A DNA stretch of 64,000 bases, taken from Acidithiobacillus sp. HP-2 (GTDB lineage Bacteria > Pseudomonadota > Gammaproteobacteria > Acidithiobacillales > Acidithiobacillaceae). The notes below the pieces were generated by a model, which had not been told where the DNA came from, did no database searches, and worked only from the letters and a program-made list of their open reading frames with translations. Shown here one piece after another: positions 3,899-32,752 of this stretch (position 1 is its first letter; the number at the start of each line of letters is the position of its first letter). The DNA is taken from assembly GCF_015100155.1 (NCBI RefSeq), contig NZ_JACKZA010000001.1:62001-126000 (forward strand). The letters are read 5' to 3'. Both the position numbers and the translations under genes were made by a program.

Positions 3899-3969
3899 GG
3901 AGCGTTAGTAGACGTGTGGTATGTTTAATTACAAGGGTATTCATCACTGTACGGCTACAATCAGCTTGT

Positions 3970-4024
3970 TTCGAGGCATGACAATTATCTCCATCTGTTT
4001 ATGGAGCGTAGTGTACGCCTCGAA
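3970..4024. repeat. Nested inverted repeat upstream of fbpC
   Basis: Outer arms TTCGAGGC (3970-3977) and GCCTCGAA (4017-4024) enclose inner arms CTCCAT (3989-3994) and ATGGAG (4001-4006). It lies in the 183-bp gap between the metal transporter gene and fbpC, about 70 bases before the fbpC start. There is no T-run as in a simple terminator. It could be an operator or an mRNA leader structure; no known riboswitch class was recognised. Confidence 0.5.
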
Positions 4025-4081
4025 TGTGACAGTTTTATGACAACGGGTGGTAGGAAGAGGATTCTCCTGAACGCTGGTCGG

Positions 4082-14550: not shown

Positions 14551-14749
14551 CCTAAAAACGGCAGTTGCTGTGGGTGCTTTTTGCTCCATTGTTCCTTGCC
14601 TGTTGTTCTAAGGCTCATCCTGCTGTCAGGAGAGAACTCGCCCTACGGGCTCAAACAGCTCTCCTGACGGGCGCTGGATTTCGCCAAGAACAACAACGGC
14701 TCAGAACAAAAGTCGCTGCAAAGCACCCACGGCAACTGCCGTTTTTAGG
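14551..14749. mobile_element. Miniature inverted-repeat transposable element, copy A (199 bp)
   Basis: Non-coding element with terminal inverted repeats of about 30 bp (left 14551-14580, right 14720-14749; one difference). They start CCTAAAAACGGCAGTTGC. It is flanked by the 5-bp direct repeat TTTAT at 14546-14550 and 14750-14754, as expected for a target duplication. Inside is another inverted repeat (GTCAGGAGAG with CTCTCCTGAC) topped by GCCC-TAC-GGGC, so the whole element can fold as one long hairpin. It is nearly identical internally to the copy at 31452-31647, which lies in opposite orientation. It ends five bases before the stop codon of the L,D-transpeptidase gene. Confidence 0.85.
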
Positions 14750-28177: not shown

Positions 28178-29110
28178 TCATACGCCCTGAATATCTTTTA
28201 CTCCAAGCAGATTTGCAGCCACACTGGCCCGGATTTCCTCCAGAAAGGCGCGCATGTGCTCTTGTTCCGACTGCTCAGCCGTGGTGGCTGCCTGCAAAGT
28301 CTGCCAAAGACCTTGAGGACCCAGTGGCAGGGCGCGCACATAACCCTTTTCACCGTAGCTCCCCACCGCCCAGGAAGGGAGAGCGGCTATACCCTGACCC
28401 GAGGCCACCAGTTGCAGGATGATGACCGTCAGTTCGGCATGCCGCCGGCGCCAGGGCTGGATGCCAGCGGGCTGCAGAAACTCCCGGAACAAATCCAGAC
28501 GTCGGTCTTCCACCGGATAGGTGATGAGGGTTTCTTCCAGAAAGTCGGCGGGCTCCAGATAAGGCTTGCTGGCCAGGGCGTGGCGAGGATTGACCAGAGC
28601 GACCACTTCGTAGGCAAACAGGGGATGCAGGGTGATATCTGCGGCCATGGCATCTGGGGCGGTCAGTACGGTCAGGTCAGCCTGATGACTTTGCAGGAGG
28701 GGCAGAGGGTCCTGTTGAAAACCGGACACCAGGTCCATCTCAACGTCCGGCCAGTTTTCCCGGAAATGATCCATGGCGGGGGTCAGCCAGTCAAAACAGG
28801 TATGACATTCCACGGCAATACGCAGGCGTCCACTGTTGCCCAGCGCCCGACGTTTAAGTTCTTCCTGCAACTGCCGCACGCGGGGCAGGACTTCCCGCGC
28901 TGCCGCCAGCAATTCTTCACCGGCAGGGCTGAGGCGCAACTGGCTGCCCCGTTCGCGGTCCAGAATGTTGACACCAAATTCCGCTTCCAGACCACGGAGC
29001 TGATGGGACAGGGCGGACTGGGTCAGATGCAGGCGTTGGGCTGCGGCAGCCAGACTGCCAAACTGGGCGACAGCTTCGATGGTGCGCAGGTGGCGAATTT
29101 CAATGGGCAT
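28178..29110 (-). CDS. metR: LysR-family regulator, MetR-like
   Basis: DNA-binding regulator of 310 residues. The N-terminal winged helix reads MPIEIRHLRTIEAVAQFGSL followed by AAAAQRLHLTQSALSHQLRGLE. The effector domain begins LRIAVECHTCFDWLTPAMDHF, then VEMDLVSGFQQDPLPLL and GIAALPSWAV, which match MetR (homocysteine-responsive activator of methionine genes) closely along the length. No met gene lies beside it here; the next gene downstream is hemN, so the pairing is unusual. A degenerate copy of the transposable repeat lies upstream. Confidence 0.8.
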   Translation of the reverse strand: MPIEIRHLRTIEAVAQFGSLAAAAQRLHLTQSALSHQLRGLEAEFGVNILDRERGSQLRLSPAGEELLAAAREVLPRVRQLQEELKRRALGNSGRLRIAVECHTCFDWLTPAMDHFRENWPDVEMDLVSGFQQDPLPLLQSHQADLTVLTAPDAMAADITLHPLFAYEVVALVNPRHALASKPYLEPADFLEETLITYPVEDRRLDLFREFLQPAGIQPWRRRHAELTVIILQLVASGQGIAALPSWAVGSYGEKGYVRALPLGPQGLWQTLQAATTAEQSEQEHMRAFLEEIRASVAANLLGVKDIQGV

Positions 29111-29180
29111 GGCAGGCTCGATTCAGGCTGTTTCCAGATCGCATTGTCCCACGATCATCGCGTCCTGCAACATGCTTTAA

Positions 29181-29243
29181 TCCTCAAAATGGCAGTCGGC
29201 GCGGACCAAAGTCGTTGCAAAGCTTCCAGGCCGACTGCCGTTT
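29181..29243. repeat. Internally deleted copy C of the inverted-repeat element
   Basis: TCCTCAAAATGGCAGTCGGC (29181-29200) is the left arm and GCCGACTGCC (29230-29239) followed by GTTTTA the right. The middle (AAAGTCGTTGCAAAGC) matches the right half of copies A and B. The arms differ from those in A and B but still match each other. No target duplication is evident. It sits between metR and the porin promoter. Confidence 0.65.
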
Positions 29244-29306
29244 TATGATGATGGATACCCCTTTCAACCCGTTTCTGCCATAATCGTTATATCCATATAG
29301 AAATAA

Positions 29307-29361
29307 CGTCACAAAAAGTTCATAAAACTGTCATCATCTTGTCATATAGCCTCGTTATTAT
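29307..29361 (+). promoter_or_regulatory. Tandem PHO-box promoter of the porin
   Basis: Four hexamers lie at exact 11-bp steps: CGTCAC (29307), GTTCAT (29318), TGTCAT (29329) and TGTCAT (29340). The last two, CTGTCATCATCTTGTCAT, match the PhoB box (CTGTCAT direct repeats with a 4-bp spacer). A -10-like TATTAT follows at 29356-29361 after a ten-base spacer, the arrangement of PhoB-dependent promoters in which the box replaces the -35. Confidence 0.82.
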
Positions 29362-29401
29362 GCCCACAGTGTTGCAAAGAACCCTAAATCGAGGAGGTCA
29401 C

Positions 29402-30754
29402 ATGTTGAAGAAAAACCGCGTTGTCATTGCACTGTTTGCGGCCCTGAGTGGCTTTGCTGCTATCGCCCATGCCGACACCAGTTCCACAGAAAATACCCTG
29501 GCTGACTTTTTTATGCACAGCAAGGTGGATGGACAAATTCGTTCTTACTATTTTGATCGGTTCTTTGGAAAGAATGCCACAAATCTCAGCGCCTTCTCGC
29601 TGGGTGGCTACATTAACGTGCATACGCCTTCTGCAGCGGGTTTCAGCGCTGATGTAGGTTTTTACACGGCTAATAGTCTGGGTGCCAATCGGGTTAATCC
29701 CGATGCTACCTTGATGGGTACCGCAGACTCCACAAATGCCTTGGGTCAGGCTTATCTGCAGTACGCCATTCCCGATGTGGTGATGATTCGGGCGGGTAAC
29801 CAGGAAGTTAACACCCCTTTTGTGAATGGCTCCGACTCCCGTGCGATTCCGGCCACCTACCAGGGCATTTTTGCGCAAGTGACGCCTTACTGTGGCTGGA
29901 ACATTTATGGTATGCGGATGTTCCGCTGGAAGAGTCGCACCTCAGGTGATTATTACCGCGATAACCTGTATTACAACACTGGTTTCGACGGTGACCCCAT
30001 TTATGGTGGCGCGGCTGACCTGCCCGCAGGTACGCCAGCTTCCAATGGCCTTTTGGCGTTTGGTACGAGTTACAAGAGGTACGGTATCAATGCCCAGGCC
30101 TGGTATTACAACTTCTATAACTTTACTAACATGTTCTACGGCGATGCCAGTTACACTTTGAAGACGGGCATGGGGCTGGACCCGTTTCTTGGTGGTCAAG
30201 TAGTACGCGAGTGGGATGCCAACAGTCGTTTGAATAGCAGCAATTCCGGTGTCGGCGCAATCGATCACTTCCAGGGCAACGGGGTCAACAGCACTGCCTG
30301 GGGTGTGGAAGGTGGCGTCAAATATAATCTGGATAACGCCATTCTCGGCAAAGGGGCACTGACAGCCGCTTACAATGAAATTGAATATCATCCTGGAGCC
30401 ATCGGTGGTGGGGCCATTGTTTCGCCCTATACCGTCGGTTATGCAACGGATCCCCTCTATACCACGTCCATGATTCGTGGTCTGGTGGAAATGGGTCCCG
30501 GTCATGGTTTTAAAATTGGTCTGAGCCAGCATTTCCTTAACAACAGCTTTTTGTTCCAGACGGCTTATGCCCAGTACCATCTCCAGGCGGCAGGTTATGC
30601 CAACGATATCTACGGTGATCTGACTTACTTCCCCAAGGGTTTCCTCAAAGGTCTGTCCATTCGTGATCGGGTAGAAGTCGCTCATGGTGGCGGACTTCCG
30701 AATAACACCGGCTATTTCATCTACAACCGCGTGATGTTGACCTACGCATTCTAA
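29402..30754 (+). CDS. OprD-type outer-membrane porin, probably phosphate-starvation induced
   Basis: Outer-membrane channel of 450 residues. The start MLKKNRVVIAL has GAGGAGG just upstream; 21 upstream codons are in frame but improbable. The signal peptide ends near AIAHA-D. The mature protein starts ADFFMHSKVDGQIRSYYFDR, typical of OprD-like porins of this group. It then alternates short strands rich in Tyr and Trp, ending in aromatic YNRVMLTYAF with a terminal Phe for barrel assembly. The promoter carries tandem PHO boxes, so phosphate or phosphorylated-compound uptake is the likely role. It is followed 32 bp later by an OmpA-like lipoprotein gene. Confidence 0.8.
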   Translation: MLKKNRVVIALFAALSGFAAIAHADTSSTENTLADFFMHSKVDGQIRSYYFDRFFGKNATNLSAFSLGGYINVHTPSAAGFSADVGFYTANSLGANRVNPDATLMGTADSTNALGQAYLQYAIPDVVMIRAGNQEVNTPFVNGSDSRAIPATYQGIFAQVTPYCGWNIYGMRMFRWKSRTSGDYYRDNLYYNTGFDGDPIYGGAADLPAGTPASNGLLAFGTSYKRYGINAQAWYYNFYNFTNMFYGDASYTLKTGMGLDPFLGGQVVREWDANSRLNSSNSGVGAIDHFQGNGVNSTAWGVEGGVKYNLDNAILGKGALTAAYNEIEYHPGAIGGGAIVSPYTVGYATDPLYTTSMIRGLVEMGPGHGFKIGLSQHFLNNSFLFQTAYAQYHLQAAGYANDIYGDLTYFPKGFLKGLSIRDRVEVAHGGGLPNNTGYFIYNRVMLTYAF

Positions 30755-30786
30755 GCGGACGCATACTGCGAAACTCAGGGAGAACA

Positions 30787-31335
30787 ATGATGATTGCCAA
30801 AAAACATGTATTGCTCGCGGTAATGTTGATGGCGGCGGCTGGTTGTGCGGAAGCCCCCTTTCAGGGCTGTCCTGCCAACAAGGCGCCGGTAGCGGCGCCG
30901 GTGCCCGCTCCGGCTCCAGCCCCCGTTCCTGTTCCGGCGCCCATTGCGCCAGTGCAGCGTACGGTCCTGCAGAGCAAACCCATTACCATCACGGGTATCA
31001 ACTTCAAGCTGAATTCTTCCAAACTCATGGGCCATGACATCCAGGTTCTGGACCAGGTCGCGGATTTTGCCCGGAAGCACAGCAGCGCGGTACTGGATGT
31101 CAATGGTTACTGCAGTAAGGTAGGCAGCTATGCCTACAACCAGCGTCTTTCAGAACAGCGCGCTGACAGTGTTGCTCAGTATCTGGAAGCGCACGGCGTG
31201 TCCCGTTCACGGATGGTGCTGAAGGGCCATTCCTACAATGATCCGGTCGCCAGCAATGCAACGCCGCAGGGTCGTTTTGCCAACCAGCGGGTAGAAATCA
31301 ATTCGACCATTCAGGTGGAAAAAACCGTCAACTAA
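30787..31335 (+). CDS. OmpA-like peptidoglycan-associated lipoprotein
   Basis: A 182-residue envelope protein. The signal peptide ends LMAAAGC, a lipobox with the acylated Cys near residue 20. An Ala-Pro-rich linker (about 33-56) follows, then an OmpA C-terminal domain: GINFKLNSSKLMGHDIQVLDQVADFARKH, the peptidoglycan-binding NQRLSEQRADSVAQYLEAHGV with its Asp and Arg, and GRFANQRVEI. It anchors the outer membrane to peptidoglycan. It is probably co-transcribed with the porin and ended by the terminator at 31408-31430. Confidence 0.88.
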   Translation: MMIAKKHVLLAVMLMAAAGCAEAPFQGCPANKAPVAAPVPAPAPAPVPVPAPIAPVQRTVLQSKPITITGINFKLNSSKLMGHDIQVLDQVADFARKHSSAVLDVNGYCSKVGSYAYNQRLSEQRADSVAQYLEAHGVSRSRMVLKGHSYNDPVASNATPQGRFANQRVEINSTIQVEKTVN

Positions 31336-31407
31336 CGGTCAAGATATCGCCTGATAATGTAAAGATTTTACCTCTGCAATGCTCATGGCATTGCTCCTCC
31401 TCTCCTC

Positions 31408-31430
31408 GCCCCGCTCTGCGGGGCTTTTTT
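31408..31430 (+). terminator. Rho-independent terminator of the porin/OmpA operon
   Basis: GCCCCGC (31408-31414) pairs with GCGGGGC (31418-31424) around TCT and is followed by TTTTTT. Confidence 0.95.
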
Positions 31431-31451
31431 ATTACGGGGATTTCGGATTAT

Positions 31452-31647
31452 CCCAAAAACGGCAGTTGCTATGAGTGCTTTGCAGCGACTTTTGTTCTGA
31501 GCCGTTGTTGTTCTTGGCGAAATCCTGCGCCCGTCAGGAGAGCTGTTTGAGCCCGAAGGGCGAGTTCTCTCCTGACAGCAGGATGAGCCTTAGAACAACA
31601 GGCGAGGAACAACGGAGCAAAAAGCACTCATAGCAACTGCCGTTAGG
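31452..31647. mobile_element. Miniature inverted-repeat transposable element, copy B (196 bp)
   Basis: Same element as 14551-14749 in opposite orientation. Arms CCCAAAAACGGCAGTTGC and its inverse bound the element, with the right end shortened by a few T/A bases. It is flanked by the 5-bp duplication ATTAT at 31447-31451 and 31648-31652. The internal 10-bp inverted repeat GTCAGGAGAG/CTCTCCTGAC and apex GCCC-TTC-GGGC are kept. The right duplication contains the stop codon of the heptosyltransferase gene. No coding capacity. Confidence 0.85.
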
Positions 31648-31648
31648 A

Positions 31649-32752
31649 TTATCGAGAGGAGAGCTGCTGGAGAACCTGTTCGGGAAGCAGATCTTCCATG
31701 CAGCGGTGGTGCTTGAGAGGGCATTCTCTTTTGCCGCAGGGGCTGCAGGAAAGTCCCAGACGCAGGGCCACGGCGCCGGGTGACAAGGGCGGAGTCATTT
31801 GCAGGGGGGTTGATCCATACAGGGCTATGACCCGGCTGCCGACAGCCCCGGCAATATGCATCAGACCCGAGTCATTACTGACGGTGATTTCTGTCAGTGA
31901 GAGCAGGTCGATGGCTTCTGTGAGGCTGGTACGCCCACCCAGATCAAGCACTGTCGGGACAGCTTGCGCGATGGTCTGGGTGATTTCGGCGTCTTTCGGA
32001 CTGCCGAAAAGCCACACTGGTCGTCCGGCCTGAGTCAGTTGCCGGGCCAGACTGACCCAGTGACGTACAGGCCAGCGTTTGGCCGGGCCATATTCTGCCC
32101 CGGGTGCGAGTGCCACCAGTCCTGCACCGGGATTTTGGATATTCAGACGTTGCAGCGTGATGGCAAGCGCACCGTGATCCACCGTCAGACGCGGTGCGGG
32201 TAAATGCTTGGGTTGCGGCAAACGTCGTGGTAACCCCAGGGCCACAAAACGATCTACCGTACGTGGCAGGCGTTTTTTATCCAGGTGGTGGCGGTCATTG
32301 AGCAGCATTTTTCGGGCACTGCCGCCAAAGCCACTGCGGTTGGGAATCTGGGCCCAGTAAGGAACCAGTGCCGATTTCAGGCTGTTGGGCAAACAGATAG
32401 ACCAGTCGTAATCTTCTTTCTGGAGGGTTTCGGCTATACGGCGGCGTTCTTTCCAGCCCAGTTTGCCGTGGGGAATATCCAGAGGAATGCCGCGCCGCAC
32501 TTCTGCCATGCGCGAAGCAACCGGCAGGCTGGCCGGCGGGGCTAGGACATCAATCTGCAGTTTGGGCCAGCGCCGGCGCATGACCTGCAATAATACTTGC
32601 GCCATGACCATGTCGCCTACCCAGGCAGGACCCACCAGCAGAAGGCGGGCCGGATCATAAGCCCGGGCCAGGCGGGTATTATGGGCGGCAAACGCATCTT
32701 CTTCGGCGTAAGGCGGTTCGATGGTTTCCGGTAAAGCCTCTGACATGTTCAT
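31649..32752 (-). CDS. ADP-heptose:LPS heptosyltransferase (WaaF-like, GT9)
   Basis: Adds heptose to the inner core of lipopolysaccharide on the cytoplasmic face of the inner membrane. The start ATG at 32750-32752 overlaps the stop of the RMD1 gene (ATGA); a later ATG at 32744-32746 is also possible, giving about 367 residues. GT9 features: LLVGPAWVGDMVMAQ near the N-terminus, LPNSLKSALVPYWAQIPNRSGF, VALAPGAEYGPAKRWP, and VSNDSGLMHIAGAVGSRVIALYGSTPL. The C-terminus contains a CSPCGKRECPLKHHRCM cysteine/His cluster common in WaaF proteins. Its stop lies within the target duplication of element copy B. It is last in a five-gene operon. Confidence 0.87.
   Translation of the reverse strand: MNMSEALPETIEPPYAEEDAFAAHNTRLARAYDPARLLLVGPAWVGDMVMAQVLLQVMRRRWPKLQIDVLAPPASLPVASRMAEVRRGIPLDIPHGKLGWKERRRIAETLQKEDYDWSICLPNSLKSALVPYWAQIPNRSGFGGSARKMLLNDRHHLDKKRLPRTVDRFVALGLPRRLPQPKHLPAPRLTVDHGALAITLQRLNIQNPGAGLVALAPGAEYGPAKRWPVRHWVSLARQLTQAGRPVWLFGSPKDAEITQTIAQAVPTVLDLGGRTSLTEAIDLLSLTEITVSNDSGLMHIAGAVGSRVIALYGSTPLQMTPPLSPGAVALRLGLSCSPCGKRECPLKHHRCMEDLLPEQVLQQLSSR

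Follow-up and report, generated by a model that had tools for sequence, protein, structure and literature searches.

A PhoB-type promoter array before an OprD-type porin in Acidithiobacillus: a predicted phosphate-starvation porin

Several outer-membrane porins are regulated by PhoB, among them PhoE of Escherichia coli and OprP and OprO of Pseudomonas aeruginosa. In Pho-box promoters of the E. coli pstS/phoA type, TGTCA-type half-sites recur as direct repeats every 11 bp, the last one serving as the -35, and a -10 element follows about ten bases further on; this replacement of the -35 by PhoB is a mechanism known from E. coli. Known OprD/Occ channels carry amino acids or organic acids. In the habitats of acidithiobacilli, phosphate can become scarce through ferric iron. 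PhoB regulation has also been described for the porin KpnO of Klebsiella pneumoniae (PMC3405095), and the Acidithiobacillus ferrooxidans porin Omp40 is reported to rise on phosphate starvation (PMC8886135). For A. ferrooxidans, a personal communication quoted in one paper has the operons pstI and pstII induced under phosphate limitation, and a figure legend in the same paper marks PhoB-binding sites (PMC10322971).

Promoter layout and conservation

The window, that is, the whole stretch of 64,000 nucleotides that was analysed, comes from Acidithiobacillus sp. HP-2 and holds an OprD-type porin gene before which the original prediction had placed four PhoB half-sites at 11-bp steps, with a TATTAT -10 element ten bases on. 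Every letter and spacing was checked and is correct, the step between all four half-sites being exactly 11 bp (letters read at 29307-29345). The features at this locus, and the second exact Pho box of the window, are as follows.

4026..4042, minus strand: second exact Pho box in the window, preceding the ABC operon 3898-163
28178..29110, minus strand: divergent LysR-family regulator (Pfam), which the best explanation does not need
29307..29312, plus strand: PhoB half-site 1, CGTCAC (sequence; GTCA conserved in aligned columns)
29318..29323, plus strand: PhoB half-site 2, GTTCAT (TTCA kept in 24 array-bearing homologues)
29329..29334, plus strand: PhoB half-site 3, TGTCAT (sequence, column conservation)
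29340..29345, plus strand: PhoB half-site 4, TGTCAT, at the -35 place (sequence, column conservation)
29356..29361, plus strand: -10 element TATTAT, 10 nt past the array
29392..29397, plus strand: ribosome-binding site AGGAGG (by eye)
29402..30754, plus strand: OprD/Occ-type porin, 450 aa (Pfam OprD, 18-strand low-confidence model, Foldseek)
30787..31335, plus strand: OmpA-domain protein, probable lipoprotein (Pfam OmpA, 71.7 bits; lipobox-like AAGC by eye)
31408..31430, plus strand: intrinsic-terminator-like GC-rich stem and T run, behind ompA

The listed open reading frame of the porin opens at a TTG at 29339, inside the array, and the ATG at 29402, behind AGGAGG, is the likelier start. The array shares with E. 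coli pstS/phoA-type promoters its 11-bp direct repeats of TGTCA type, the use of the last half-site for the -35 and a -10 about ten bases later; it differs in having four half-sites, the second with a fixed TTCA, and in preceding an OprD-type porin. A sigma-70 consensus scan called no promoter at the array and -10 region, and an Rfam scan of 28900-31800 gave no match. In the reading that we prefer, to which we give a probability of roughly 0.85, a PhoB-activated Pho-regulon promoter drives a phosphate-starvation porin of OprD/Occ scaffold and, probably, an OmpA-type lipoprotein. Under phosphate shortage, dimers of phosphorylated PhoB would occupy two neighbouring pho boxes, whose four half-sites lie on one face of the helix; the last half-site would replace the missing -35, and PhoB would recruit RNA polymerase to the TATTAT -10.

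Conservation was assessed with an array score (four half-sites at 11-bp steps, maximum 24), on which the window array reaches 21. Scoring and tree building took in 57 porin-homologue rows, 56 of them with scorable upstream sequence; fragments and places below about 44% identity were omitted, except L003 and L004 of the window's own genome, and loci duplicating other contigs (e.g. L007, L048) were counted once. Two more loci of the own genome, L002 (also L124) and L005, were scored separately and gave 13 each; L113, with 45 nt upstream, went unscored, and L126 had 100 nt upstream. The 56 homologues divide into 27 at 20 or above, 4 at 17-18 and 25 at 15 or below, the array being absent from the last. 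Twenty-four window-type array-bearing homologues come from 24 genomes of Acidithiobacillaceae; since they were picked for bearing the array, the array itself is no independent count among them, and column conservation and the -10 are the independent observations. Among these 24, the mean majority-letter share comes to 0.93 for half-site columns and 0.80 for spacers; for the 40 bp upstream of the array it is 0.53, and for the 36 bp downstream 0.63. Agreement of the window with 12 deeper homologues is 0.92, 0.75, 0.33 and 0.50 for half-sites, spacers, the stretch before and the stretch after. TANNNT lies exactly 10 nt past the array in 24/24; none of the other offsets between 0 and 27 has it more than 5 times. 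Judged by these columns, the array and the -10 are both held while their surroundings drift, which agrees with the box conservation in relatives that had been proposed as a check.

That chance alone strung common words together into this array is scarcely credible. What speaks for chance is that two-half-site matches with up to three mismatches number 49 in the window where 50.3 are expected; with up to one mismatch they show a weak excess in the own genome (35 against 22 in the control). Because two-half-site boxes stand at background rate in the window, the evidence is carried by the four-site array and not by the half-site, and the case rests on that array, its conservation and its linkage rather than on two-half-site counts. 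Chance fails at the four-site level: none of 3300 Markov-1 sequences built from 55 upstream regions reached a score of 20 (best 19), and the array is conserved in homologues whose local identity is about 51-57% and whose flanks drift. Across 57 genomes, the exact pattern GTCAY-N6-TTCAY-N6-GTCAY-N6-GTCAY was matched 36 times, in 24 of them, and the reversed pattern not once. The genes behind these 36 arrays, assigned by position or from the translation of the next gene, are 23 window-type porins, 4 Porin_O_P genes, 7 TonB-dependent receptors (by Pfam on one, the same protein in five more and, for G010:C97, by box likeness alone), one carrier nearest to a phosphate:H+ symporter model (328 bits, below the model's cut-off) and, in the far genome G049, one PstS-family gene (262 bits, cut-off 207).

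A further candidate for control of the porin is the divergent LysR-type regulator, with the array in a secondary role. Of the 24 array-bearing loci, 21 were examined for the LysR gene; 18 have it on the same side and the other 3 stop at a contig end. A palindrome abuts the array. We consider main control by LysR very improbable, as the stretch upstream of the array has only 0.33 identity to the 12 deeper homologues, and in 7/15 loci examined a Porin_O_P gene stands between LysR and porin or is cut there by a contig end. The palindrome itself spans 24 nt at 29285-29308 (12-nt inverted repeat, 83% complementary, arms gapless), and abuts half-site 1. LysR might bind there, but the deeper homologues do not conserve this stretch.

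PhoB and the Pho boxes of the genome

The own assembly that was searched (3.2 Mb, 48 contigs) contains 21 PhoB-model matches, a single one of which lies above the cut-off (300.7 bits, cut-off 296.2). Open reading frames beside this phoB carry histidine-kinase, ABC-ATPase (read as PstB-like), PhoU and Ppx domains. The DNA-binding domain of the protein matches solved PhoB chains at E 1e-29, and its recognition helix, RTVDVHIRRLR, is identical. The genome has six exact TGTCAYN5TGTCAY sites. One precedes the porin studied here; the others lie in front of pstS (344 bits against a cut-off of 205), the window's ABC operon, a gene for a winged-helix regulator and two MFS carriers, of which one comes closest to a phosphate:H+ symporter but stays below that model's cut-off. 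A PPK2 gene (389 bits, cut-off 302) lies behind a one-mismatch box; the other one-mismatch boxes of the own genome have no such phosphate-gene neighbours. The PhoB-type promoter that had been predicted is thus supported by the conserved half-sites and -10, by a PhoB with the matching helix and by boxes before pstS, a symporter-like gene and PPK2. As a PhoB-type array precedes the porin in Acidithiobacillus and relatives, the porin is most likely made when phosphate is short.

Another OmpR/PhoB-type regulator might bind the array, for example the Pho-boxed winged-helix protein (L036), in which case the signal may be other than phosphate. The genome offers candidates, with its 21 PhoB-model matches of which one exceeds the cut-off, and PhoB-like regulators are reported to adjoin iron and phosphate genes in acidithiobacilli, for which an iron-phosphate circuit with such regulators was proposed (PMC2631029). 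We nevertheless hold this to be improbable, because the same sites precede pstS and the phosphate:H+ symporter-like gene and because the PhoB that passes the cut-off has the recognition helix of solved PhoB; we infer PhoB binding to the array and induction through it.

Boxes of this kind also mark receptor genes elsewhere in the genome. An exact four-half-site array precedes a TonB-dependent receptor gene (L166, G000:C45:208411-208448; L021, C45:207600), which is divergent from the boxed phosphate:H+ symporter-like carrier and is likewise boxed in at least five relatives; its product is predicted to be a PhoB-controlled TonB receptor. At L034/L036 (G000:C45:89540-89693), a second TonB-type receptor and the winged-helix regulator are divergent, with a Pho-type box each.

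Linkage of the porin paralogues also points to phosphate. A paralogue lies directly before pstS in four relatives, among which L115 and L116 have a perfect half-site pair before the porin, L108 has no box and L109 has one only before the PhoB-like gene in front. In six others (L118, L122, L126, L130, L131 and L136) a paralogue heads a Pho-boxed ABC operon resembling the window's 3898-163 operon; array scores for the five with enough upstream sequence are 17 (this one including a perfect pair), 20, 20, 18 and 21. In the tree of porin homologues this ABC-linked group is a single clade (support 100/99), and the window-type rows require two changes, with box-less rows and the pst-linked L108 and L109 falling among them. 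The window itself holds a porin relic at 3899-4042: of the former gene there remain its exact Pho box, the start codon and some 11 codons, followed by a deletion up to the ABC gene; L118 retains a whole OprD-type porin at the place of this relic.

Of 15 loci examined, five (L007, L009, L010, L012, L013) have a whole gene of the OprP/OprO type (Porin_O_P) arranged in tandem with the window-type porin; it is cut by the contig end in 2 (L008, L011) and absent from the fetched stretch in 8, and coordinates in G019 and G026 put a Porin_O_P gene beside the porin too. All five whole tandem genes have an upstream array scoring 21-22, three in the exact pattern (array and gene at L010:1823-3286, L009:1977-3440 and L007:1907-3370), and the gene at L010:2003-3286 matches Pfam Porin_O_P with 190 bits. 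The tandem gene is missing at the window's locus. Three Porin_O_P matches occur in the window's genome. With 26.2 bits (Pfam cut-off 20.9) the best of them falls well short of the tandem genes, which reach 144-193 bits where they are whole or nearly so, and a strong OprP is therefore missing from this genome. Of the six genes that exact Pho boxes precede there, no other than the window porin encodes a porin.

The porin, its neighbours and its probable substrate

The assignment of the window porin to the OprD type rests on a Pfam OprD match of 29.9 bits (cut-off 25), which six homologues tested pass too. Porin_O_P gave no match, Pfam at E up to 0.001 returning OprD alone, and NCBIfam gave no match up to E 1e-5. 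Porins of named Acidithiobacillus relatives are 89-94% identical. A predicted model, from an alignment of 12 sequences, has 18 strands at a mean pLDDT of 54, too poor for mapping the constriction; ranks 1-26 of a Foldseek search with this low-confidence model are all Occ/OprD-type channels. The protein has the Pfam OprD domain in common with channels such as OccAB2, OccD2, OpdQ and OpdO, which are its best Foldseek matches, but is only 11-16% identical to them in the matches listed.

The original prediction had extended the phosphate-starvation role to the OmpA lipoprotein. Co-regulation is plausible, as the porin-ompA gap is 32 nt with no terminator-like site on the plus strand between them, such a site following only behind ompA; against it, ompA stands behind the porin in 16/24 array-bearing loci and is missing in 8/24. 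From this layout, ompA is probably on the porin transcript, and the OmpA-type cell-wall-binding lipoprotein would probably tie the envelope to the cell wall. Directly past the ompA terminator, at 31458-31644, lies a small element with perfect 24-nt inverted ends; it is one of 30 places in the genome that match over about 130 bases or more, as a MITE-like family, another being 14557-14749 of the window.

Phosphate is the probable substrate of the porin, which would widen phosphate access across the outer membrane and so supply Pst, the carriers that resemble phosphate symporters and the ABC system behind the Pho box. The promoter could also be PhoB-controlled and the porin nonetheless import phosphonates, phosphate esters, metal-phosphate complexes or organic acids, or be a general pore. 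This we regard as unlikely, yet a real alternative: the fold class by Foldseek is that of the Occ channels, which are known for amino and organic acids. In addition, the ABC operon headed by one group of paralogues encodes an ATPase whose nearest models, each below its cut-off, are those of polyamine, sugar and 2-aminoethylphosphonate systems. A Pho-specific basic pattern is also absent apart from two residues. The charge comparison of Pho-linked with other porin rows (L108 and L109 counted as Pho-linked by neighbourhood; L003, L004, L113 and L135 excluded from the others) gave no sign of an anion channel, net charge being -5 to 11 against -1 to 15; K254 and R423 alone mark the Pho-linked rows and also occur in about a quarter of the 19 others. 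Against a non-phosphate substrate stand the paralogues that lie in front of pstS and the tandem arrangement with Porin_O_P, and we retain phosphate as the probable substrate.

More tentatively, a channel of OprD scaffold may have been taken over in Acidithiobacillaceae for service as a phosphate-starvation porin, one suited to pH 1-3 that supplements or replaces an OprP-type channel. At pH 1-3 phosphate would be present as H2PO4- and undissociated H3PO4, and a near-neutral channel would not need to attract anions.

Comparison with known phosphate porins

A porin family of biomining bacteria gains here a testable job and a testable switch, and the pair of OprD-type and OprP-type porins under one kind of control offers a direct way into outer-membrane phosphate passage at pH 1-3. 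Loss of a phosphate transporter has been tied to loss of iron oxidation (PMC10322971). A literature search found no report of an OprD-type porin under PhoB; most subscription papers lay outside the search, including the older proteomic work that reportedly exists on phosphate-starved A. ferrooxidans.

The reported rise of Omp40 under phosphate starvation raised the question whether the window porin is Omp40. Both are porins from the same bacterial family; they differ in that the likely Omp40 gene, identified by position in G014, has no phmmer similarity to the window porin. Nor does that gene have a convincing box (best pair 8/12, best array 16/24), and on both grounds the identity was rejected. 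The homologue of the window porin in G014 does carry the array. With PhoE, OprP/OprO and KpnO the window protein shares being an outer-membrane porin under PhoB, which in the window is a prediction; it differs from them in matching Pfam OprD and not Porin_O_P, the others belonging to other porin families. Pho-regulated porins are thus already known, and what the window would add, on the strength of its sequence and that of its relatives, is an OprD-type scaffold predicted to stand under a PhoB-type promoter.
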